In this document: one piece after another, positions 3,569 to 35,286 of the stretch | Layout of the letters: the number at the start of each line of letters is the position of its first letter | How positions within the stretch are numbered: position 1 is the first letter of the stretch | Virus record (IMG/VR): IMGVR_UViG_3300045747_000144 | Span: 1-60,254 of that record | Length of the DNA stretch: 60,254 bases | Reading direction: 5' to 3' (one strand) | Source of the DNA: a virus | The notes under the pieces: model-generated | What the model saw: only the letters and a program-made list of their open reading frames with translations | Databases searched by the model: none | What the model was told of the DNA's origin: nothing | Made by a program: the position numbers and the translations under genes

Positions 3569-4828
3569 ATGAGCATTTTGCGTATTTTGAATGAGTTGGC
3601 ATCGGATAATTCACGATTAGCCAAAGAGGCTATTCTGAAAAGAGAACAGAATAACAAACTGTTACAGCGAGTAATCAAGGCAGCGTTTGACCCATTCATT
3701 AACTATTATGTCTTGAATGCAGAACCCGTTTCAAGTGCAAGTTCGGACTTATCTCTCGATGATATGTTCGACATTCTTCGTCGATTGTCAACCCGTGAGA
3801 TTACAGGCAATAAGGCTCGGGCACTAATCTGCAATACCAAAACACAATTGTCAGATTCAGATGGTGAAGTATTCTACCGAATCTTGCAACATGATCTTCG
3901 CTGTGGTATTGCAACAGCAACAATCAATAAGATTTGGCCAGGCACCATTCCAGTGTTTGATGTATGTTTGGCGCACAAAGATACGTCAGGGATTAAGTAT
4001 CCTGCATACGCACAAATCAAATATGATGGCGGACGATGCCATTTACATTTCGATGGTGTAAAAGCAACCGCATGGTCTAGGAATGGTAAGCAGATTGAAT
4101 TACATGGTGCATTAGATAATGATGCCAAAACGATCATGTCTACAGGTGATACATGGGATGGTGAGATTGTTTTCCGCAAATCTAATGGTTCATTACATGA
4201 TCGCAAAACCAGTAATGGTTTGTTCAATAAGGGAGTTAAAAACTCCATATCAGAATCAGAAGCAGCATTCGCAACATTCTTTGTGTGGGATAATGTAGAT
4301 TTCACAGAAACTATTCCATACGATAAGCGCCTTGAATCTATGGGTGATGTATCAACAACGACAATTAGAATTGCGGGTACTATCATTGTAAAGAATGAAC
4401 AAGAGGGATTAGATTTTTATGCCAAATGTTTAAGTGAGGGTGAGGAAGGTGCCATTCTAAAGAATAAGACATTTAAATGGCAACCTAAACGGATTAAAGA
4501 TATTGGTAAGATGAAAGCAGAAGAAGAGGCTGATGTTCTAGTTACCGGATGGTTTGCAGGTAAACCAGGTACCAAATATGAAGATGGTTTGGGTGGATTA
4601 GAATACACCACATCAGATAAGGTTATTGAGGGTAATGTGGGTAGTGGGTTTTCAGATGATATTAGGTTCGCAGGTGATTACGATTCATGGGTGGGAAAGA
4701 TTATAACAATTCGATATAATCAACGCATCAAATCATCTACAGATAAGAAAGAATCATTATTCCTGGCAAGGTATATTGAAACACGGTTAGATAAGGATAT
4801 TGCAAATAGTTCGGACGAATTAAAATGA
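3569..4828 (+). CDS. 30: ATP-dependent DNA ligase (T4 gp30-like)
   Basis: A 419-residue ATP-dependent DNA ligase that seals nicks during replication and recombination. The N-terminal helical DNA-binding region (about residues 1-120, ending LRCGIATATINKIW) is followed by nucleotidyltransferase motif I, K-Y-D-G-G-R, with catalytic Lys151. Then come the SRNGKQIE motif, WDGEIVF (motif III), EGAILKN (motif IV) and W-Q-P-K-R-I-K-D-I-G-K-M-K (motif V region). The C-terminal part is an OB-fold with the expected EADVLVTGW start. T4 ligase is a little longer. The ATG has a GATAGGAATT ribosome-binding site. Its stop overlaps the next gene. Confidence 0.95.
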   Translation: MSILRILNELASDNSRLAKEAILKREQNNKLLQRVIKAAFDPFINYYVLNAEPVSSASSDLSLDDMFDILRRLSTREITGNKARALICNTKTQLSDSDGEVFYRILQHDLRCGIATATINKIWPGTIPVFDVCLAHKDTSGIKYPAYAQIKYDGGRCHLHFDGVKATAWSRNGKQIELHGALDNDAKTIMSTGDTWDGEIVFRKSNGSLHDRKTSNGLFNKGVKNSISESEAAFATFFVWDNVDFTETIPYDKRLESMGDVSTTTIRIAGTIIVKNEQEGLDFYAKCLSEGEEGAILKNKTFKWQPKRIKDIGKMKAEEEADVLVTGWFAGKPGTKYEDGLGGLEYTTSDKVIEGNVGSGFSDDIRFAGDYDSWVGKIITIRYNQRIKSSTDKKESLFLARYIETRLDKDIANSSDELK

Positions 4829-5129: not shown

Positions 5130-5345
5130 ATGGAAGTTAGTATTAATGGATTTACAGAGAATCAGGCAAAGCATGCCGATATTATATGGGCAATAGAATC
5201 ACAAGAAGAAGTTCAAGTGTATCTAAATGCTCTAGATGGTATAGATTGGATTGATGCAAACATTGCACTCAATATGATTTGTGCAGAGGCAATGGATTCT
5301 GTGGATAATTTAGAAGATGCCTCTGAGTTATTGGCAAAGTATTGA
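5130..5345 (+). CDS. small acidic protein, function unknown
   Basis: A 71-residue acidic helical protein (EVSINGFTENQAKHADIIWA...) with GGAG nine bases before the ATG. It sits in a run of small genes between the ligase and SPFH genes. The 74 bases before it hold no gene. No family recognised. Confidence 0.65.
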   Translation: MEVSINGFTENQAKHADIIWAIESQEEVQVYLNALDGIDWIDANIALNMICAEAMDSVDNLEDASELLAKY

Positions 5346-5357
5346 AAAGGAGAAAGT

Positions 5358-5612
5358 ATGAAACAGATTTTAGTCATTGCGTCTATTTTGTTATTGACCG
5401 CTTGTGGTAAAGTAGATAATTTTGTAAACGGTGTAAAATCAGCAACGGGTAACTTAGATCGAACAGTTACTCTGTATAATGAAACTGGTGGTGTAATTAA
5501 GTCATGGAAGACATCCAATACTGTTGAGTATGTGGGTCCAGTTGCTGGGTTTATTGATAAAGACGGGACTAATGTCCGTGTATCTGGCACATTCATTATT
5601 GAAGGTAAGTAA
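5358..5612 (+). CDS. small lipoprotein
   Basis: An 84-residue protein with a lipoprotein signal peptide: MKQILVIASILLLTAC, with lipobox L-L-T-A-C and the lipidated cysteine at residue 16. The mature part is a small beta-rich domain (LYNETGGVIKSWKTSN ... VRVSGTFIIEGK). A strong AAAAGGAG ribosome-binding site lies upstream. Export to the host envelope is predicted. Such phage lipoproteins can act in superinfection exclusion or lysis control, but nothing here decides between them. Confidence 0.75.
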   Translation: MKQILVIASILLLTACGKVDNFVNGVKSATGNLDRTVTLYNETGGVIKSWKTSNTVEYVGPVAGFIDKDGTNVRVSGTFIIEGK

Positions 5613-5854
5613 TGGCATACGAAGATATTGTCGTCAAAGTTCAGGAAGAGGTCGATTACATTCTTCCTGCTATTTGTGTTAATGGTATGATGACTATCAT
5701 GTCTGATATTGGTGCAATTTATATCACCAAAGAGCAGGCAATGCAATTCTTTGATCTTGTTGAAAATTCAAAGTATATTGAACAGCAAATGATGATTAGG
5801 ACATTATCTAGGGCTGCTACGATGAATTGGGAAAAGACAGTGCCAATGCATTAA
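5612..5854 (+). CDS. small protein, function unknown
   Basis: An 80-residue protein overlapping the lipoprotein stop (TAATG). It contains two beta-like strands (ICVNGMMTIMSDIGAIYITKEQ) followed by helices. Coupled to the lipoprotein and upstream of the SPFH gene, so possibly related to the same membrane function; that is a guess. Confidence 0.6.
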   Translation: MAYEDIVVKVQEEVDYILPAICVNGMMTIMSDIGAIYITKEQAMQFFDLVENSKYIEQQMMIRTLSRAATMNWEKTVPMH

Positions 5855-7784: not shown

Positions 7785-7809
7785 GTAATTACACAATGAA
7801 GGAGTGATA

Positions 7810-8805
7810 TTGAAATTTTATACTAGTTGCCTGCCTTGGGGGAATAATATCCTATATCGAGGGATTGAAAATGGACGACATGTTCAGATGAAAGTCCCTT
7901 TCGCACCCACACTGTTTCTTAAATCTAATGACAAGAAATCAGAATGGAAATCATTAGACGGTACTGCAGTTGAACCCATGAGATTCGCTGAGATTCGTGA
8001 AGCCAAAGATTTTATCAAAAGATATGATGGTATTCAGGGATTTGAAGTATATGGTATGAATCAATGGCAATATCAATATCTGGGTGATGAATTCCCAGGT
8101 GATATTGATTATGACCTATCTGCCATGCGTATATGGTCTCTCGATATTGAAACTTGCGTATCTCAAGGATTTCCTGATATTGCAACTGCATCCGAAGAGA
8201 TACTTCTAATCTCAATTCAAGATAAAGCATCAAAAGAATTGATTGTTTTTGGTTCTAGGTCATACGAGAAAACAGAATCAGACAATTTCACATACCGTCT
8301 ATTTAAAGACGAAACTACAATGCTCAAGGCATTTATTGATTATTGGCACGACAATTACCCAGATATTGTTACAGGTTGGAATGTAGATCAGTTTGACTTC
8401 CCTTATATCATCAATAGGGTGATGAGGGTATTGGATGAAGATTGGGTAAAGAGATTGTCACCATGGGGTTTCATTAATGAAAGAAAGATAGAGATTCGTG
8501 GTAAAGATGTGCAAACCTATGACATCATGGGAATTGTTATTCTTGACTATATGGAACTCTATAAGAAGTTTACTCAGGGAACCAAGGAGAGTTATTCCCT
8601 TAAGTTTATATCAGCTGAGGAACTTCCCGCAGAGTCACAAAAACATGAATTATGGGGGTCGTTTAAGGAAAGTTATAATGGGGAATTCAGAGCATCCGCA
8701 GAGATATTTGATAAAAATAAAAATGATGAAATAGTCAAAGAATCATTTGAACGTGAAAAGATAATAAAGGAAATGGAACGTCGTGGTATTAAGTGGAATT
8801 TTTAG
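7810..8805 (+). CDS. 43: family B DNA polymerase, N-terminal/exonuclease half (gp43A)
   Basis: A 331-residue protein corresponding to the N-terminal and 3'-5' exonuclease domains of T4 gp43. Exo I is D-I-E-T in WSLDIETCV. Exo II is N-x3-F-D in WNVDQFDFPY. The SYSLKFI region leads towards Exo III. The protein stops at ...RRGIKWNF, before the palm domain, which is encoded separately at 9563. TTG 7810 is preferred as start (AAGGAG five bases upstream, giving MKFYTSCLPWGNN as in relatives); GTG 7804 would overlap the ribosome-binding site. The break falls in the linker between exonuclease and palm, so the halves probably associate in trans, as known for split gp43 of Aeromonas T4-like phages. Confidence 0.9.
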   Translation: MKFYTSCLPWGNNILYRGIENGRHVQMKVPFAPTLFLKSNDKKSEWKSLDGTAVEPMRFAEIREAKDFIKRYDGIQGFEVYGMNQWQYQYLGDEFPGDIDYDLSAMRIWSLDIETCVSQGFPDIATASEEILLISIQDKASKELIVFGSRSYEKTESDNFTYRLFKDETTMLKAFIDYWHDNYPDIVTGWNVDQFDFPYIINRVMRVLDEDWVKRLSPWGFINERKIEIRGKDVQTYDIMGIVILDYMELYKKFTQGTKESYSLKFISAEELPAESQKHELWGSFKESYNGEFRASAEIFDKNKNDEIVKESFEREKIIKEMERRGIKWNF

Positions 8806-9550
8806 GAACTAATTTCGACCGCATACCAACGTATAAAACACCTTTGTTCATTTTGAACTCTGCAGATGTGACCAGTTCATATGTGTTTTCTATTATGTTA
8901 TAAACGGTCATTGTACCTTTTTTGGATAAACTTATTGCTTTTCTGACGGACTCACGCTTACAATGGTGCGCGTCACCCTTAGACAACATAGTTAATTGAC
9001 GTTTTCTGATGACTTCTTTAGATTTTAGAATAGTAGAAGAAATTAGTTTTCCCTGGTCTGATAATTTTTGTTTATGTGTATCCGATCGGGTCAAACTTAG
9101 TGCTGATACTGACATTTTTTGTTTGGTCTTGTCACTATGCGTTCTTGTACCAACAGATAATTTTCTGGCAACTGAACACATTTTTCTGCCATAATCATAA
9201 AGATGAGAAGTTACTCTATATTGTTTTTCTCTATGATGATTTTTATTTGACATTTGATAAAAAGCATAGTTTGCTTTCATCTTATATAGTTTGTCTTCAA
9301 ACATTTTGGTTAGAAGTAGGTGACATAAGAAATGTTCTTTGGCTGTAAGTTTAACAATATTGTTTTTGTCTGTTTCACCACCCATGTGGAACGATTTAGG
9401 TAATATGTGGTGTAATTCACCGTACCCGTCTTTATATTTTGAATTTTGACATATATTTAAGTACCACTTATAATACTTGTTGTGGGTAGAGATGGAATCT
9501 AGTATAGTTTTGTATTTTGCATGATTTATTAAAATTGTGTTATTGATTAT
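8789..9550 (-). CDS. HNH homing endonuclease inserted between polymerase halves
   Basis: Reading on the minus strand, the frame is open from 9550 down to a stop at 8789-8791, which lies inside the 3' end of gp43A. The HNH core YGELHHILPKSFHMGG, then DKNNIVKLTAKEHFLCHLLL, is typical of free-standing phage HNH enzymes. It is followed by NUMOD3-like DNA-binding repeats (THSDKTKQKMSVSA, THKQKLSDQGK, HHCKRESVRKAIS) and a C-terminal helical domain. Such enzymes cut related genomes lacking the insertion and promote their own spread. The first ATG (9385) is inside the HNH motif; no ATG, GTG, TTG or CTG lies upstream in frame. The true start is therefore unclear: a rare AUU/AUA start, a frameshift, or decay. 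Confidence 0.75.
   Translation of the reverse strand: MINNTILINHAKYKTILDSISTHNKYYKWYLNICQNSKYKDGYGELHHILPKSFHMGGETDKNNIVKLTAKEHFLCHLLLTKMFEDKLYKMKANYAFYQMSNKNHHREKQYRVTSHLYDYGRKMCSVARKLSVGTRTHSDKTKQKMSVSALSLTRSDTHKQKLSDQGKLISSTILKSKEVIRKRQLTMLSKGDAHHCKRESVRKAISLSKKGTMTVYNIIENTYELVTSAEFKMNKGVLYVGMRSKLVPKNST
9446..9474 (+). promoter_or_regulatory. perfect consensus sigma70 promoter for gp43B
   Basis: TTGACA (9446-9451), an exact 17 bp spacer and TATAAT (9469-9474): a full consensus promoter. It lies inside the HNH gene, on the opposite strand, 89 bases before the gp43B start. It would transcribe the downstream polymerase half independently. Confidence 0.8.
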
Positions 9551-9562: not shown

Positions 9563-11272
9563 ATGATGGAATATACACATCTTAGTGATGATGAGTTAAA
9601 AATAGTTTTTCATAAACAAAATGAGAAGGTTAAGGTGTTGGTGTGGCAAACCTTTGTGCAATATAATGCCCGAGATACAGAAGTTGTTGATAAGATGGAC
9701 GATAAGTTGAAGTTCATTGAATTGGTAATGACCATTGCTTATTTGTCAAAGTGCAATTTCAAAGACGTTTATGGTCAAGTTAAAGTATGGGATGTGTTCA
9801 TTTACAATTACCTATTGCATAAGAAGATTGCTGTTCCACAGGCAAAGGGTCATGTAGGTGGGTCTATTGAGGGTGCTTACGTTAAGGCACCATTAATGGG
9901 TATGAAAGGATGGGTTGTGTCATTCGATTATGCATCACTGTATCCTACAATCATGCGGCAATGGAATATCTCACCTGAGATGTTAATGGATAAGGTGCCT
10001 ATGGGAGTTGCCAATATGGTTGACCCCACAGATGCGGAAGAATTATTGTTTAAGTATGCAAAAGAACAAAATTGTACTATTGCAGCTAATGGTACAATGT
10101 TCAAACGGGATAGACAAGGTATTCTACCTGAAGTAGTTGAAGTTATGGTTAATGGACGAAAGTCTATTAAGAAGCATATGTTGGAAATGGAGAAGAAGTA
10201 TCAAGAGACGCATGATGAATCATTAGTTCCTAAGATTGCTGCAGCCAACGGAAAACAACTTGCCTATAAAATTATGGCTAATGCATTGTACGGTGCTGCC
10301 GGTAATGCAGGGTTTAGGTATTATGATTTGAGAATCGCTGAGGCAATTACATTAACAGGTCAAGCATGCGATAAGATGGTTGAGAAGCATGTTAATGTGT
10401 TTATGAATAAGGTTCTCAAAACAGAAGGTAAAGATTATGTATTATACATGGATACTGACTCTTGTTACCTAGATTGCTCTGGTGTGGTTGATTCAGTTTG
10501 TCCAGATAAGACAGATGAAGAAAAGATGAAATTCCTCATTAAGTTCTCTGAGGAGGTGCAGAATAGGCCTATTAAAGGTGCAGATGATATTATGTTTGAT
10601 AGATGCAACTGTTTCCAGATGCATATGAATATGAAGCATGAGGGTATATTCTCTAGGGGATTCTGGACAAGTAAGAAACGATATGCATTGAAAATGATGT
10701 ATTCTGAGGGTGTCACTTATGATCCTCCCAAGATTAAAGTTATGGGATTGGATATCGTCAAGAGTTCTACCCCACAGGTTGTTCGTAAAATGTTGAAAGA
10801 GACACTGCCTGTTATGTTTGATTCTGATGAGGTTACATTGCGTGCTTATGTTACAAAGTGTAGAGAAAAGTATTTCACATTGACACCAGAAGATATTGCA
10901 TTCCCAAGGGGAGTTAATAACCTAATTAAGTACACAGACAAACAATCTGGTAATTATATCAAGGGTACACCAATGCATGTTAGGTCTGCTATTCTATACA
11001 ATAGGCACACAAAACCAATTCGTGAACAGTATCAAGAGATTGGTCATGGGGATAAGATTAAGTTCATTGCATTAATGGTGCCCAATCCAATTCGAGAGGA
11101 TGTTATTGGGTTTCTCAGTTCAGGTAAGTTTCCTAGGGAATTGAATCTAGAGAAATATGTGGATAAAGATATGATGTGGGAAAAATCATTCTTAGTTCCT
11201 TTGCGTGGAATTACTGATGCAATTGGGTGGCAAGTGGAAGAGAAATCGTCATTGGAGTCGTTCTTTGGATAA
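9563..11272 (+). CDS. 43: family B DNA polymerase, palm/fingers/thumb half (gp43B)
   Basis: A 569-residue protein with the catalytic polymerase core of T4 gp43. It opens with YTHLSDDELKIVF, then the VQYNARDTEVVDKMDDKLKFIEL region that carries Exo III. Motif A is F-D-Y-A-S-L-Y-P-T, motif B is K-Q-L-A-Y-K-I-M-A-N-A-L-Y-G-A, and motif C is Y-M-D-T-D-S with the metal-binding aspartates. The end, KSSLESFFG, resembles the sliding-clamp-binding tail of gp43 (T4 ends in a similar LDFLF-type peptide). It has its own AAAGG ribosome-binding site and promoter. Exo III lies on this fragment while Exo I and II are on gp43A, so proofreading requires the two halves to assemble. Confidence 0.93.
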   Translation: MMEYTHLSDDELKIVFHKQNEKVKVLVWQTFVQYNARDTEVVDKMDDKLKFIELVMTIAYLSKCNFKDVYGQVKVWDVFIYNYLLHKKIAVPQAKGHVGGSIEGAYVKAPLMGMKGWVVSFDYASLYPTIMRQWNISPEMLMDKVPMGVANMVDPTDAEELLFKYAKEQNCTIAANGTMFKRDRQGILPEVVEVMVNGRKSIKKHMLEMEKKYQETHDESLVPKIAAANGKQLAYKIMANALYGAAGNAGFRYYDLRIAEAITLTGQACDKMVEKHVNVFMNKVLKTEGKDYVLYMDTDSCYLDCSGVVDSVCPDKTDEEKMKFLIKFSEEVQNRPIKGADDIMFDRCNCFQMHMNMKHEGIFSRGFWTSKKRYALKMMYSEGVTYDPPKIKVMGLDIVKSSTPQVVRKMLKETLPVMFDSDEVTLRAYVTKCREKYFTLTPEDIAFPRGVNNLIKYTDKQSGNYIKGTPMHVRSAILYNRHTKPIREQYQEIGHGDKIKFIALMVPNPIREDVIGFLSSGKFPRELNLEKYVDKDMMWEKSFLVPLRGITDAIGWQVEEKSSLESFFG

Positions 11273-27640: not shown

Positions 27641-29002
27641 ATGCAGCATTCGTTTAAAAATTGGTTGTTGGAGAATTTTGGGTCTGATTATGACTACTCT
27701 AGTTTGACTCCACATCACACGTACAAAACAAAAGACGGGCATGAAGTCAATATTCATGTATTCAACAACCCAAACGGCAAGCACGCAGTATTTCACAATA
27801 AATCCCTTGGTGGCGTTGTGACAAAAATAGTTCACTGGAACCACACTGCAGAGAGACCTTCCATGGAAGAGTTGGTCGCTATGGGTAAGGAAGACGAAGA
27901 ATTAAATGAGGAAGCCAAAGCGCTTACTGGCGATTCAGCAGGCAGAATAACAGAACATTCTGCCATTATTCATATGATTGGGCATAAGCATGCTCAAAAT
28001 AAAACCCACGGATCACCAGAGCATCAAGCTGAAATTGCTCACCATGAGGAAGCAATTAAAAAATTAGGTGGAGGCGCACATCCGCATCAAGTTGAAACAC
28101 GAGTAGAGCACGGCAAGGCGGCAGCAGCTGCAGCATTGGCATCAATCAAGTCAATACATGGGCCTCACGCAAAAATAGAATCGGTTGCTCATACATCAAA
28201 ACGTGGTGATATAGAAAAATTCACAAAGGGTGTTCACAAAGACACCCAAGAAAACCCATCAGATATGGGTGTTGAAGTATCAAACTCCGATAACCATAAA
28301 AATAAAAATAAGAGATTCTATCACGGTTATTCACTTAAGTCATCTGCCAAGGCCAGTAACATCACAGCGAAAAATCCAGGTATTCATATGCATGGTATTT
28401 TGGATGTTCCAAGTCGCAAATTGAATGCAGAAAAAGTATCCAGAGATGGTATCAAAGATGTGGTCAAAAAAATGGGGCATGAAGGTGTATCCGCTGCAGA
28501 TCGAGGCAGGATGATATCCAAATCCAGGGAAGAAGAGGGGACACACCCCAAACACGCAGATGCAAATAAAAGACTAACAAAAATTGAAGCAGAAGCAAAC
28601 GTCCATGGTAGAACAGCCAGAGAAAATGTTGCGACTGAATTACACGACCATATTCACCATCTAGTGAAGAATGGTCATCACGATAAGATATCTGGTATGC
28701 TTAAGTCGCACCTAACAGCAGAAACTAGTATGCGTTGGGATAAGATTCATGTTAAAGGTGACAACCCAGCTAAGGTTAAGGCTAGTGTTACCCCAGGAAG
28801 CGAATCCCCTCTATCCAAAATATTCAATGACCCTAAATCTAAATACGCAGTATCACGCAAAGGGTCCAGAGTGACTGTTCACCATGTCGATCCCACTACA
28901 GGTGATCATACAGACTTGGCGCACTATAGTCCAAAGACGAAAAGCAACATATTTAAGTCAGATGTTCATAATTGGAATGTTATGCCTGGGCATACGCACT
29001 AA
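27641..29002 (+). CDS. putative His-rich internal head protein
   Basis: A 453-residue, basic, His-rich protein driven by a perfect late promoter. The N-terminus MQHSFKNWLLEN resembles a capsid-targeting tag with an L-L-E cleavage pattern. The middle includes HSAIIHMIGHKHAQNKTHG and HHEEAIKKLGGGAH. Next come HKDTQENPSDMGVEV, FYHGYSLKSSAKASN and NPGIHMHGILD, which recall a nuclease-like fold (a P-S-D then S-L-K pattern). The last third ends in SPLSKIFNDPKSKYAVSRKG and HYSPKTKSNIFKSDVHNW. Similar large proteins occur beside head genes in aquatic T4-like phages, without known function. Head localisation and nuclease activity are inferences; the coding call itself is secure. Confidence 0.75.
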   Translation: MQHSFKNWLLENFGSDYDYSSLTPHHTYKTKDGHEVNIHVFNNPNGKHAVFHNKSLGGVVTKIVHWNHTAERPSMEELVAMGKEDEELNEEAKALTGDSAGRITEHSAIIHMIGHKHAQNKTHGSPEHQAEIAHHEEAIKKLGGGAHPHQVETRVEHGKAAAAAALASIKSIHGPHAKIESVAHTSKRGDIEKFTKGVHKDTQENPSDMGVEVSNSDNHKNKNKRFYHGYSLKSSAKASNITAKNPGIHMHGILDVPSRKLNAEKVSRDGIKDVVKKMGHEGVSAADRGRMISKSREEEGTHPKHADANKRLTKIEAEANVHGRTARENVATELHDHIHHLVKNGHHDKISGMLKSHLTAETSMRWDKIHVKGDNPAKVKASVTPGSESPLSKIFNDPKSKYAVSRKGSRVTVHHVDPTTGDHTDLAHYSPKTKSNIFKSDVHNWNVMPGHTH

Positions 29003-29008
29003 TAAATA
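29001..29008 (+). promoter_or_regulatory. late promoter (AATAAATA)
   Basis: AATAAATA, 24 bases before the fractured nucleotidyltransferase gene. ATTGATGGG follows, as at 27.6 and 34.5 kb. Confidence 0.65.
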
Positions 29009-29032: not shown

Positions 29033-29632
29033 ATGCTAACATTTAAAGAATTCATAACAGAAGCACCCGCTGGTGACCACGCTCATCAATTGGGGCTAAG
29101 TCATATGGGATATGGGAGATACGGTAGAGATGGTAAAGTATCTCACGTTTCTAGAAACGATAAGTTGACCCATGTATCTAAGGTCAAAGACTTTAGCACA
29201 CTGCACGGTGGGCAATTAAAGCACTTAGAGCACGCTGATGATGAGGTATTTAATCATGGTTCCCATGGTGTCAGAAACATTGTTGACCATGTAAATGCAT
29301 TACGACATGGTGATGATAGAGTTAAAGTGTCCCAAAAGATTGATGGTTGTGTGCACGAAGATACTATTATCATGACTAATATGGGTGAGATTAAGATTAA
29401 GGATGTTACTACACAAACTACTGTTATGGGGCATGATTTTGGTGACGGGTTGGATAAAATGATTGATATAATAAACAAAACACAATCACCCTCCAATAAA
29501 CAGTGGGTTGAGGTATTCTTTGAAAATGAACAGTCCGTCAAGGTTACAGAAGATCATGAGATATTCACAACCAATCGTGGGTGGGTAGAGGCAGGACAAT
29601 TAACCGAAGCTGATAACGTACAAACAATGTAG
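29033..29632 (+). CDS. ligase-like nucleotidyltransferase N-terminal part fused to split-intein N half
   Basis: A 199-residue protein. Residues 1-10, MLTFKEFITE, resemble a capsid-targeting sequence with the I-T-E/A cleavage pattern. Residues 11-105 are the N-extein, ending VKVSQKIDG, where Lys102 in K-x-D-G is the probable catalytic lysine of a covalent nucleotidyltransferase. Residues 106-199 are a split-intein N half: Cys106 is the splicing nucleophile, followed by VHEDTIIMTNMGEIKIKDV (block A) and KVTEDHEIFTTNRGWVEAG (block B with its conserved His). It stops at NVQTM, where a full intein would continue. Splicing in trans with the 30427 product would restore a protein of about 426 residues. 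Confidence 0.85.
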   Translation: MLTFKEFITEAPAGDHAHQLGLSHMGYGRYGRDGKVSHVSRNDKLTHVSKVKDFSTLHGGQLKHLEHADDEVFNHGSHGVRNIVDHVNALRHGDDRVKVSQKIDGCVHEDTIIMTNMGEIKIKDVTTQTTVMGHDFGDGLDKMIDIINKTQSPSNKQWVEVFFENEQSVKVTEDHEIFTTNRGWVEAGQLTEADNVQTM

Positions 29633-29653
29633 ATGGGGTAAGGTGTCTTATTT

Positions 29654-29661
29654 GATAAATA
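29654..29661 (+). promoter_or_regulatory. late promoter for the intein-associated HNH gene
   Basis: GATAAATA upstream of the HNH gene, between the two halves of the fractured gene, 23 bases before the ATG. Confidence 0.6.
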
Positions 29662-29684
29662 CATGTATAATCAAGGAGACGATG

Positions 29685-30449
29685 ATGAAATGCCCATATT
29701 GTAATATAGAAACAAGAAACCTAGGTAATCACACTAAGGGGTGCAACAACTACAAAAATCAAATTATAGCTGTTACATCATTCATGGATAAAAATATAGA
29801 AGAAATAAAACATCTATATATTGACGATGAATTTTCAGTTTCAGAAGTTGGAAACTGGATAAATGAAAAGTTAGGTACATCACTGACTGCCACATTCTTC
29901 TTTGATGAAAAAAGGGGGATTAAGTGGTGGATGACGAAACATAGTATATATCGCGGGGTAAGATTCACGAAACGTAGGTCCAAAAAAACTCGTGATACCA
30001 CATTAGAACGACATGGTGTAATGAATATTGGTTGCACCAAACAATATGGATGGAATAATACAAATAAAATAGAGTACGACAAGATATCGTACTTGACAGA
30101 CAAATTTTATGAATATGAAAATCTAGTAAAACGATTTACCAATAGGTCAGCAAAATTAAAAGATAAACCAGCTTATTGTGAATATACTGGTATCATGTTC
30201 ATTGATACAGAATTAGGTAGAGAAGTTAACCCAAATGACCCAAGGAAAAGGTCTATAGACCATAAGATACCTACTATATGGGGATATTTAAATCATATTT
30301 CACCTGAAGTTATAGGTGGAATAAATAACTTAGCATATGTGTTACGTTATGTCAATACAATTAAAGCAAATACTTTGTATGAATCTTTCATACCTATGGC
30401 AATTAAAATGAGGGAAGTTTTCAAAAATGAAGGTTACAAAAGTAATTAA
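29685..30449 (+). CDS. free-standing HNH-like endonuclease inside fractured gene
   Basis: A 254-residue protein encoded between the two halves of a split-intein gene. It begins KCPYCNIETRNLGNHTKGC, a zinc-finger-like C-x2-C...H...C. Basic helical DNA-binding regions follow (KRRSKKTRDTTLERHG). The nuclease part is RKRSIDHKIPTIWGYLNHIS, with the HNH-type D-H-K-I-P and the distal GGINNLAYVLRYVNTIK. ATG 29685 is chosen (AGGAG six bases upstream); ATG 29682 is possible. It ends inside the start of the next gene. Its position fits the known arrangement in phage metagenomes where a free-standing homing enzyme gene separates the halves of a gene broken at a split intein. Confidence 0.8.
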   Translation: MKCPYCNIETRNLGNHTKGCNNYKNQIIAVTSFMDKNIEEIKHLYIDDEFSVSEVGNWINEKLGTSLTATFFFDEKRGIKWWMTKHSIYRGVRFTKRRSKKTRDTTLERHGVMNIGCTKQYGWNNTNKIEYDKISYLTDKFYEYENLVKRFTNRSAKLKDKPAYCEYTGIMFIDTELGREVNPNDPRKRSIDHKIPTIWGYLNHISPEVIGGINNLAYVLRYVNTIKANTLYESFIPMAIKMREVFKNEGYKSN

Positions 30450-31506
30450 ACTCGACTGTGGATATGATCAACATGACATATCCACAGCAACGGAGAACTT
30501 CTATACTAAAGTGGGAGATTCATGGGTTCTCATTCATAATTCACCATCAGTGGTTCTTGGAACTCACCCAGAAACTAAAAAATTCTTTGTTGCATCTAAA
30601 TCTGCTTTCAACAAAGACCCAAAAATCAATTACACCGATGAAGATATTGACCGCAACCATGGTCATGCTCCTGGTCTAGCTAAGAAACTAAAATCACTTC
30701 TAAAACACGGACACAAGCTGGGTATTAAAGGTGTTGCGCAGGGTGATATGCTTTATGATGAATCAGATAAGCACGAACACGAAGGCAAGATTCATTTTAA
30801 ACCAAACACTATCAAGTATTCTATTGATAAGAAGCATCCTGAGGGCAAGAAGGTAGCTAGATCAAAAATCGGTGTTGCGTTGCATACAGAGTATGATGAA
30901 AAGGGTAATGCTGTACTAAACCCACACATTAAAGTTAAAGAACATCCAGATGTTTATAATATGCCAGTGGCTGTGCATAAAGATAAGATGAAATTTGATC
31001 ATGCTAAACTGAAACATCATGCTTCTGAAATTGGTAAGAAGATGAAGGAAATTCCTAAAGAGGGATGGGATGCAGTATCACACCCTGCAGCGGCAGAGCA
31101 TGTCAAGACTTACATCAACCAAAAAGTCCGTAAAGGTGAAACGGATTATAATGTAGATGAACTCCAGAAGCACATTCATGGTAAGTATCAGAAAGAAATT
31201 GATAAAGTAAAATCTGATAAAGCGAAGAGTGCTAAGGCCCAAGAAAGAGATACCATATCAGGTCATGTTAATATCCATGCTCACCATTACAAGAAAGCAT
31301 TTGAAATTCAACATCACATTAACGCGGCAAAGCACCATGTTATTGATAGTTTAAACCACAACCAGACATTTGATCATCACTATGAAAATGGTGAAAAGGC
31401 ATCACCAGAAGGTTATGTAAGCATTGGTCACCACGGTCCAGTTAAATTTGTCAATCGTGGTGATTTTAGTCGTGCCAATTTTGCGATGTCAGCAAACAGG
31501 AAATAA
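30427..31506 (+). CDS. split-intein C half fused to nucleotidyltransferase C-terminal part
   Basis: A 359-residue protein. Residues 1-38 are a split-intein C half: VIKLDCGYDQHDISTATENFYTKV (block F), ending VLIHN at Asn38. Ser39 is the +1 nucleophile that begins the C-extein SPSVVLGTHPETKKFFVASK. Joined to the upstream part this restores KIDG-SPSVV, motif I of ligase-like nucleotidyltransferases. The segments NYTDEDIDRNHGHAPGLAKKL, GIKGVAQGDMLYDE and FKPNTIKYSID match the conserved body of a protein family frequent in T4-like phages of aquatic bacteria (usually annotated DUF6267). The last 120 residues are His/Lys-rich. GAGGGAAG precedes the ATG. Confidence 0.85.
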   Translation: MKVTKVIKLDCGYDQHDISTATENFYTKVGDSWVLIHNSPSVVLGTHPETKKFFVASKSAFNKDPKINYTDEDIDRNHGHAPGLAKKLKSLLKHGHKLGIKGVAQGDMLYDESDKHEHEGKIHFKPNTIKYSIDKKHPEGKKVARSKIGVALHTEYDEKGNAVLNPHIKVKEHPDVYNMPVAVHKDKMKFDHAKLKHHASEIGKKMKEIPKEGWDAVSHPAAAEHVKTYINQKVRKGETDYNVDELQKHIHGKYQKEIDKVKSDKAKSAKAQERDTISGHVNIHAHHYKKAFEIQHHINAAKHHVIDSLNHNQTFDHHYENGEKASPEGYVSIGHHGPVKFVNRGDFSRANFAMSANRK

Positions 31507-31507
31507 T

Positions 31508-32104
31508 ATGCTATCATTTAAAGAATTCATCTCAGAGTCGGAAAAAGAGAAACATTTTGCAATGACATACATGCGGGCTAATCCGCCGACTGTGGGTCAT
31601 TCTAAGGTAATTGCTGCAGTGGCAAAACATCCCGGAACACATAGGATTGTTGTTTCGCATTCTCAGGATGCAAAGAAGAACCCTTTGACTGGGGAGGAGA
31701 AGGCCACGTTTTTGCGGGTAGCACACCCAGAACACCATGACAATATACAAGCAGCAAGTACTGAGTCGCCCACCATACTTCACCACTTGGCAAAGTTGCA
31801 TTCTGAAGGTCACACCCACGGAAAGGTGATTGTTGGAGAGGATAGAATTAAGGAAATGAGTTCTCTGGTTAGCAAATATAATGGCGTCAAGGCAGGTCAT
31901 GGATATTACAACTTTAAGAAAGTAGATGTGGAATCTGCTGGGCACCGTGATCCTGATGCAGAAGGTGTTGAAGGCATGAGCGCAACCAAGATGAGAGATG
32001 CTGCTAAGACCGGTGACACCGAGAAGTTCAAATCTGGGTTACATCCAAACCTACACAAACATGCCACAGAAATCATGAGTAAAATTAAAGACAGATTAAA
32101 ATGA
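31508..32104 (+). CDS. TxGH nucleotidylyltransferase with head-targeting-like tag
   Basis: A 198-residue protein. Residues 1-10, MLSFKEFISE, form the tag with an I-S-E/S cleavage pattern. The rest is a Rossmann-type nucleotidylyltransferase: the MRANPPTVGHSKVI signature (T28-V-G-H31), a central VIVGEDRIKEM and the C-terminal GMSATKMRDAA, equivalent to the I-S-S-T-x-x-R motif. Family members transfer AMP or CMP to substrates such as nicotinamide mononucleotide, pantetheine phosphate or glycerol phosphate; the substrate here cannot be told. It follows the fractured nucleotidyltransferase by one base, so they are very likely co-expressed. Confidence 0.82.
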   Translation: MLSFKEFISESEKEKHFAMTYMRANPPTVGHSKVIAAVAKHPGTHRIVVSHSQDAKKNPLTGEEKATFLRVAHPEHHDNIQAASTESPTILHHLAKLHSEGHTHGKVIVGEDRIKEMSSLVSKYNGVKAGHGYYNFKKVDVESAGHRDPDAEGVEGMSATKMRDAAKTGDTEKFKSGLHPNLHKHATEIMSKIKDRLK

Positions 32105-32631
32105 TAACATTCAAAGAGTTTATATCTTCGACAACCGTTCGAAGATATACAGGTAAGAATGGGTTCTACGCATGGTTAAATGTTGCTCAAGACTCTTTAG
32201 AGGATATTCTAAAATATTTTTCTGATATAAAATTCACAACTGAGCAACTAGTTGACCTACATGTAACAGTCATGTATAGCAACACTCCCATTCCAGTATC
32301 TTGTGTGAACGAGAATAAAAAGATGCCGGATGCTACATTTATTCAATCGGTGCGGGCAAAAGAACTTGAATTTTGGGGTGGGCATTCCGGAAAGGGGTTC
32401 CTTGTTCTTAAATTGGATGCCAGTTATATCAAGCATTTGCACGAAAAATGGGTCAAATGTGGTGCAAAACCGACATTTCCTGAGTACACACCACATATGA
32501 CAATGATCACACCTTGCGATGATACATCAACATTGAAGAAGTTAATTGAGAAGTACAACGAGAAGTTAAATAAAGAACCGTTGCAGATTACATTGATACA
32601 AGAACAATGTGAAGATGTGAACGAAGATTAA
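32101..32631 (+). CDS. 2H phosphoesterase, Acb1 (anti-CBASS)-like, with tag
   Basis: A 176-residue protein. Residues 1-10, MITFKEFISS, resemble the neighbours' tags, but the glutamate of the I-x-E cleavage pattern is absent. The remainder is a 2H phosphoesterase: H-V-T at 54-56 in DLHVTVMYSN and H-M-T at 132-134 in YTPHMTMIT, preceded by GAKPTFPEY. The order Y-A-W ... LH-x-T-x-MYS ... LVLKLDASYI ... G-A-x-x-x-F-x-x-Y-x-P-H-x-T matches the T4 57B/Acb1 pattern. Acb1 cleaves cyclic nucleotide signals of CBASS defence. An alternative is another LigT/2H RNA-processing enzyme. The ATG overlaps the previous stop. Confidence 0.75.
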   Translation: MITFKEFISSTTVRRYTGKNGFYAWLNVAQDSLEDILKYFSDIKFTTEQLVDLHVTVMYSNTPIPVSCVNENKKMPDATFIQSVRAKELEFWGGHSGKGFLVLKLDASYIKHLHEKWVKCGAKPTFPEYTPHMTMITPCDDTSTLKKLIEKYNEKLNKEPLQITLIQEQCEDVNED

Positions 32632-34488: not shown

Positions 34489-35286
34489 ATGAAGAAATTT
34501 ACACAACTATTGAACGAAGTCAAAACTGCTCCTGAGCAGCTTAATGGGGCAACTGCCCTGCGAGAATCTTACGTTAACGGTGATATATTTCAAATTGGTG
34601 CGCTTGTCAAAACCAACAAAGGTATTGCTGAAATTATAAACCGTGGCCCTAATTATGTAACATTAGTTAAAGAGGGTGCAATATTCAAACGGTGGATAAC
34701 AGACATTTCAGAGACAGATTCCCAGTCTACCAAACAATCCAAAATATACAAAGAGTCATTTGTAGTTAATGGATATAAAACGGTCAACTTCTCAAAACAA
34801 TTAGCAGAAAAATTCAATGAGGTTGCCAAAGTGCACCCAGACAAATTTGCACTTTTCACCTGCGCAGTATGCTGTGATAAATTACTTGGTGCGTCTGCAG
34901 AAGAATTAGTAGAGAACTTCGACAAGTTTAGAATTGAATTTGATAGGGCAAGTAAATATCTATCAAAATTTGATATAGTGGTTGAGGAAATGGGCGCTAT
35001 AGAAGACAAGCTACTAGAATATGCTCTATTTGAAGGTGTTAAATTTTCAGCCACAAACAAACACAAAGTGGCCACCATTATTTCTGGGGCTGTTGGTCAC
35101 AAGTCAACAAGTAGAGACCCAACAGATATCATTCACGGTTCAATAGATCATGTTAAGAAGAACAGATACTCTGAAGAGCAATGGAAAATATTAGGCAAGA
35201 TGCTAAATAAAGCAACTGAGGCTGGTATTAAATGGGACAAGGCCAGGTTACACGCAATCACACAACAATTTATGGGGTTAAAATAA
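34489..35286 (+). CDS. putative head core protein
   Basis: A 265-residue protein from ATG 34489 (ATG 34480 is possible). The N-terminus MKKFTQLLNEV is tag-like, with an L-N-E site. Residues 35-75 (NGDIFQIGALVKTNKG, AEIINRGPNYVTLVKE) match a small barrel module frequent in prohead-associated proteins of T4-like phages. The remainder is helical, containing CAVCC and a long C-terminal helical bundle. Function unknown; head assembly or internal protein by context. Confidence 0.65.
   Translation: MKKFTQLLNEVKTAPEQLNGATALRESYVNGDIFQIGALVKTNKGIAEIINRGPNYVTLVKEGAIFKRWITDISETDSQSTKQSKIYKESFVVNGYKTVNFSKQLAEKFNEVAKVHPDKFALFTCAVCCDKLLGASAEELVENFDKFRIEFDRASKYLSKFDIVVEEMGAIEDKLLEYALFEGVKFSATNKHKVATIISGAVGHKSTSRDPTDIIHGSIDHVKKNRYSEEQWKILGKMLNKATEAGIKWDKARLHAITQQFMGLK

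Follow-up and report, generated by a model that had tools for sequence, protein, structure and literature searches.

Layout of the fractured gene

The virus record IMGVR_UViG_3300045747_000144 of IMG/VR was analyzed from position 1 to 60,254 on one strand (60,254 nucleotides, hereafter the window; loci compared with it carry L numbers). Between positions 29033 and 31506, a ligase-like gene of this bacterial virus is found in two pieces, each bearing one half of an intein, with a gene for a DNA-cutting enzyme between them. The host gene belongs to DUF6267 (PF19782, PHROG 455) and is broken after the residues KIDG. The upstream open reading frame (ORF; 29033 to 29632, + strand, 199 amino acids [aa]) encodes a 105-aa N extein (29033 to 29347), which ends in KIDG (residues 102 to 105, motif I), followed by a 94-aa intein N half (29348 to 29629, with the stop codon at 29630 to 29632), so that Cys106 of the ORF is Cys1 of the intein. 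A free-standing HNH endonuclease gene of 254 aa comes next (29685 to 30449, +), preceded by the Shine-Dalgarno sequence AAGGAG at 29673. Its stop codon lies over the ATG of the downstream ORF (30427 to 31506, +) in a 23-nucleotide (nt) overlap. This third ORF opens with a 38-aa intein C half (30427 to 30540; block F, then VLIHN), which aligns with eight other C halves, and continues after the HN|SPSVV junction as a 321-aa C extein (30541 to 31503, +; stop codon at 31504 to 31506) that holds motifs IV (EG) and V (K). The first ORF covers positions 2 to 47 of the PF19782 profile and the third covers 48 to 374 (E 2e-72), an exact break with no overlap, and the spliced product is predicted at 105 + 321 = 426 aa.

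A preliminary description of this DNA, made from the letters alone, had proposed a ligase-like nucleotidyltransferase fractured by a split intein. Its account of the ORFs, of the N half that begins with Cys106 after KIDG, and of the C half that ends in HN|S is correct, and the ORFs and the HNH signature described below bear out the layout with an HNH gene between the halves. The start of that gene had to be moved, however, from the GTG at 29643 to the ATG at 29685 (or 29682) behind AAGGAG.

The same description had given the HNH gene a late promoter of its own. Between the stop codon of the N half and the HNH start lies the box GATAAATA (29654 to 29661, +), which differs from the T4 late consensus by a single base. 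L011 has kept the box, and GATAAATA or TATAAATA ([TG]ATAAATA) holds this place in most HNH cassettes, which supports a putative late promoter. A further late-promoter-like box, AATAAATA (29001 to 29008, +), is recognizable by sequence 5' of the N-half ORF. The sequence NATAAATA occurs 19 times on the + strand of the window and once on the - strand, often just before genes, and nearly all genes lie on the + strand.

Unbroken homologues and recurrence of the break

The nearest homologue found, L001, is unbroken, with KIDG-SPSVV in a protein of 427 aa (71% over 381 columns). Homologues lacking the break had been expected to run through the motif without a gap, and KxDG-[SA]P is indeed continuous in all but two of the first 80 loci (78 of 80); the exceptions, L011 and L042, carry an intein C half there. 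Cultured DLP_6, Melnitz, and HTVC008M each encode DUF6267 as a single coding sequence. The suggestion that the insertion targets the most conserved DNA goes too far: conservation at the insertion site is high (rank 26 of 419 eight-residue windows), but the peak is at FNKDPKIN. No paper naming DUF6267 was found in the literature searched.

With near-identical contigs taken once, at least 16 distinct phages, the window included, have a split intein breaking DUF6267 at this site. A DNA pattern combining HN-[SCT]-P with FNK[DN]P detected 14 stretches, most of which show an N half, an interposed ORF, and a C half; a pattern shorter by one residue detected L011 alone, and a six-row HNH alignment added six more fractured loci. 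Twelve carriers have an HNH gene (the window, L011, L088, L087, L092, L094, L106, L108, L110, L112, L116, and L119). The interposed ORF of two others, L093 and L042, is of GIY-YIG type, its best relative being annotated as GIY-YIG, and the L042 cassette is cut by the contig end. L089 retains a 139-aa remnant of a GIY-YIG-type gene, and L090 has no endonuclease gene, its intein halves lying 32 bp apart. Stages of a life cycle can be read from these sequences: intact gene, HNH gene, GIY-YIG-type gene, remnant, and no endonuclease.

An assembly or chimera artefact might be suspected where the window and most of its relatives are metagenomic virus contigs. We regard it as practically negligible, since the same layout was assembled repeatedly from separate samples (L086, L088, and L095; L084, L085, L091, L093, and L096; L105, L106, and L107) and the 23-nt overlap of HNH gene and intein is kept in divergent sequences.

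The split inteins

The intein of the window has the features of class 1: Cys1, a TxxH block B (here TEDH), a C-terminal HN, and Ser at position +1. Its N half scores 25.9 bits against TIGR01445 of NCBIfam, above the cut-off of 24.5, and matches phrog_16259 (E 2e-9); used as a single-sequence query, it detected no new loci. For alignment and profile, the N and C halves of nine inteins were concatenated. C1, T67, H70, H131, and N132 are invariant among the nine, as are the positions of block F, and at a relaxed threshold 9 of 9 match TIGR01445 and 9 of 9 match Pfam Intein_splicing. The preliminary description had called for a search against known inteins; the nine-intein profile matches NrdJ-1 (E 3e-14), gp41-1 (7e-6), and others of solved structure. 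NrdJ-1 and gp41-1 are inteins that we take to be those of the 2009 study of fractured genes considered below.

In the 15 carriers that we tabulated, N halves measure 90 to 107 aa and C halves 38 to 39 aa, and residue +1 is Ser in all. The window, L011, L042, and the six loci first found by the HNH query were chosen without selection for HN-[SCT]-P. An enrichment of Ser +1 in carriers was considered and dropped because the pattern search itself selects Ser +1.

The gene might instead be permanently broken, its halves working as separate, noncovalently assembled subunits and the intein halves being relics. There are precedents in T4-like phages, where, in work cited in PMC10448857, genes in pieces act as separate chains and a split ribonucleotide reductase arose from a homing endonuclease, and the window itself has a polB broken by an HNH gene without an intein. 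We nonetheless find such a permanent break very unlikely. None of the class 1 catalytic residues has been lost, and they are invariant in divergent inteins; L090 has lost its endonuclease gene and kept both intein halves with all splice residues. A DUF6267 gene split without intein motifs, the case that the preliminary description had named as contrary to its proposal, was seen at none of the loci examined.

An HNH lineage associated with DUF6267

Residues D192, H193, N215, and N224 of the HNH protein are invariant in an alignment of six homologues, and H193, N215, and N224 form the H-N-H/N catalytic signature of HNH homing endonucleases. The window protein weakly matches PHROGs of homing endonucleases and of endonuclease VII (E 0.002), and its gene has a G+C content of 0.32, below that of its surroundings. 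The L011 HNH protein is 56% identical to it and is encoded in the same layout with the same 23-nt overlap. At every locus returned by the HNH alignment (25 of 25), a profile search of six-frame translations found a DUF6267 gene surrounding the HNH gene or immediately next to it; 16 to 17 of these loci are fractured, and at the others, put at seven or eight, the HNH gene stands beside an intact DUF6267 gene. The latter comprise four upstream types and one divergent type: in L113 (the same as L114 and L115), L118, L121, and L122 the HNH gene and the start of intact DUF6267 share a few bases, and in L123, L124, and L125 it is divergent from the intact gene. The residue after KxDG at these loci is Y, A, A, K, or S. 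One of the two HNH search patterns lies at the HNH C terminus, which adjoins the C-half start and may favor fractured loci, but this bias cannot account for HNH genes beside intact DUF6267.

As a single-sequence query the window HNH protein detected no new loci, and a tblastn search of cultured phages with it returned nothing. The six-row alignment found no relatives in bacterial genomes. A tree of the HNH proteins did not resolve whether the in-gene or the beside-gene form is older. L123 also has HNH-like ORFs at 576 to 1016 and 5343 to 5708, near its divergent HNH/DUF6267 pair.

Movement of the cassette

Carriers are interleaved with intact homologues in the extein tree, where the window pairs with L001 (support 100/97) and L011 with L077. 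A single extein clade of all carriers is rejected (approximately unbiased test, P = 6e-6), as is one of the HNH-type carriers window, L011, L086, and L087 (P = 1e-43). L086 and L094 are sisters by extein, but the intein tree rejects this pairing (P = 1e-52). The conflict between intein and extein trees indicates that the cassette moves between phages. Between L086 and L087, the inteins are 76% identical, the HNH proteins 74%, and the exteins 50%; between L092 and L094, the corresponding values are 67%, 74%, and 59%. Given that intein and HNH identities run parallel and extein identity does not, the intein and the endonuclease gene travel together.

On this evidence, the DUF6267 gene is very probably fractured by a mobile cassette, made up of the N half, the free-standing HNH gene, and the C half, inserted after KIDG. 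We infer that the two precursors would meet and their intein halves fold together, whereupon Cys106 and Ser +1 would carry out class 1 protein trans-splicing to yield the 426-residue DUF6267 protein. The HNH enzyme, expressed from its own putative late promoter, would cut DUF6267 where a co-infecting phage has it unbroken, and the entire cassette would be copied during repair.

A ligase-like host protein

In 36 intact homologues, K104, D106, G107, P109, Q174, D176, E396, G397, V399, K408, and R412 are invariant. Motifs of covalent nucleotidyltransferases follow in order, with K104-x-D106-G107 as motif I, E396-G397 as motif IV, and K408 as motif V; we take the series to be motif I followed by possible motif III, then IV and V. 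In an AlphaFold model of the DUF6267 protein (predicted local distance difference test [pLDDT], 86), the best VIA-align match is a Naegleria RNA ligase at Z 8.4, a score near 8 and so within the range that VIA-align warns can be a common arrangement. Trl1 and T4 Rnl1 and Rnl2 are also matched, and ligases fill nearly all of the top 50 rows. The ligase-like character proposed at the outset is supported by the invariant motifs I, IV, and V and by ligases being the best structural matches, which together suggest a covalent nucleotidyltransferase resembling RNA ligases. The break parts motif I from the remaining motifs, and judged by these motifs neither half alone has the nucleophilic lysine plus the other catalytic motifs.

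Several results weigh against parts of this interpretation, among them the common-arrangement range of the Z score just mentioned. Foldseek gave no match below E 0.001 for the DUF6267 model; its best was an RNA ligase at E 0.08 with a low TM (template modeling) score. A PDB sequence-profile search with DUF6267 found no convincing relative. The AlphaFold model of the HNH protein is poor (pLDDT 62). Finally, the 14 loci of the DNA pattern were selected for HN-[SCT]-P, so HN and the +1 residue are invariant there by construction.

A capsid-targeting peptide on the N half

The N extein of the window starts MLTFKEFITE|A, and the products of T4 ipII and ipIII (IPII and IPIII) start MKTYQEFIAE|A. An N-terminal capsid-targeting peptide ending in [LI]xE, as in T4-type internal head proteins, is thus present. 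Ten capsid-targeting residues suffice for protein entry into the T4 head (PMC9026906). Among the 15 N halves in our table, 12 open with the motif, slightly relaxed for this count, and the motif is absent from internal Met sites (0 among more than 900 scanned). The C half has no such peptide. From the T4-like start of the N half we infer that the DUF6267 protein is loaded into the head and later injected, in which case splicing would be needed for the C half to enter the head. No virion proteome of a relative was found in the literature searched.

The capsid-targeting peptide on the N half alone, along with the late-promoter-like boxes before the N half and the HNH gene, would also suit conditional splicing, a switch that delays the DUF6267 protein to late infection or head assembly. 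We consider such a switch very unlikely, as most phages encode the protein uninterrupted and so do not need one, and the scattered distribution of carriers fits a parasite better than a regulator.

Unrelated neighbors of the DUF6267 gene have N termini ending in [LI]xE as well, at 27641 to 29002, 31508 to 32104, and 34489 to 35286 in the window, at 5850, 6467, and 7162 in L001, and at 3579, 5975, and 6970 in L072. A cytidyltransferase-like protein is among the neighbors with such a capsid-targeting-like start. Judged by these termini, they probably make up a set of packaged, injected proteins. Two genes downstream of the fractured gene, at 32101 to 32628, lies an Acb1-like gene (Pfam E 2e-18; Acb1 acts against the cyclic-oligonucleotide-based antiphage signaling system, CBASS). 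Its start, MITFKEFISSTT, resembles that of T4 IPI, MKTFKEFTSTTT, and its product may be packaged too.

Comparison with known systems

Fractured genes with split inteins, in HNH and GIY-YIG versions, are already known. Those described by Dassa et al. in 2009, as presented in PMC6892783 and PMC7891396, likewise have a host gene in two ORFs, N and C intein halves, and a free-standing endonuclease gene between them. Their host genes reportedly serve mainly replication and nucleotide metabolism, whereas here the host is DUF6267. Pseudomonas phage MIJ3 has a split intein in PolB with an HNH gene between the halves and a C half ending HN|S, but this is a single case in a DNA polymerase B gene (PMC6892783). 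AceL NrdHF, from a probable phage contig, has a GIY-YIG gene between halves of comparable length (98 and 48 aa); unlike the class 1 intein of the window (94 and 38 aa), it is a class 3 intein without Cys1, in nrdHF (PMC7891396).

A cultured T4-like phage, Salmonella phage S16, has an N half, an interposed ORF, and a C half in uvsW (gp114/gp114.1/gp115). Its N half is 36% identical to that of the window, but the host is a helicase gene and the interposed ORF is not HNH-like by eye. The S16 uvsW locus (L082, 2314 to 5040) is a fractured gene with a split intein, although its annotation gives no more than two helicase genes plus one hypothetical protein. As for the endonuclease between the halves, that of the 2009 fractured genes reportedly comes from a new family, whereas at the DUF6267 site it is of HNH or GIY-YIG type, and this one site is shared by at least 16 phages.

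The HNH genes beside intact DUF6267 have a parallel in F-CphI of cyanophage S-PM2, a free-standing endonuclease whose gene adjoins its target and which engages in collaborative homing with the psbA intron, the splicing element located where it cuts (PMC6083498). That system pairs a group I intron with a DHHRN (Endo VII) enzyme, in contrast to the split intein and HNH enzyme here (PMC6083498). Within the literature searched there appears to be no description of DUF6267 as the host of a split intein, of one catalytic site being used repeatedly, of endonuclease classes replacing one another there, or of the free-standing sister genes beside intact DUF6267. The recurrence in 16 phages, the endonuclease exchange, the sister endonucleases, and the capsid-targeting peptide all go beyond the preliminary description.

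Two other interrupted genes were noted. polB of the window is split (7804 to 8802 and 9563 to 11269; PHROG 262 positions 8 to 306 and 302 to 852) by an antisense HNH/homing endonuclease gene (8789 to 9382, - strand, phrog_655); neither an intein nor, in a search of Rfam, a group I or II intron was found at this break. L011 encodes, at 2 to 1096, the C-terminal part of a contiguous intein (VSSHN|TGVGKS) at the P-loop of a DnaB-like helicase.

Implications

The origin of fractured genes has been hard to study, the known cases being scattered single examples. At one DUF6267 site there are alleles lacking the cassette, cassettes with either of two endonuclease classes, one whose endonuclease gene is decaying, and one that has the split intein but no endonuclease gene, in addition to free-standing sister endonucleases beside intact alleles. 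With such a range of states, the way in which split inteins arise and turn over can be tested directly. The site also provides at least 15 complete, uncharacterized split inteins (about 90 to 107 plus 38 aa), which may serve as tools.

We tentatively propose that, in aquatic T4-like phages, one HNH lineage is specific to the DUF6267 gene, standing either beside the intact gene or inside it between the intein halves. This would amount to collaborative homing with an intein in place of an intron and would offer a route to fractured genes, and trans-splicing would decide whether a probably packaged ligase-like protein enters the virion. DUF6267 itself points to a family of ligase-like proteins that are probably carried in phage heads.
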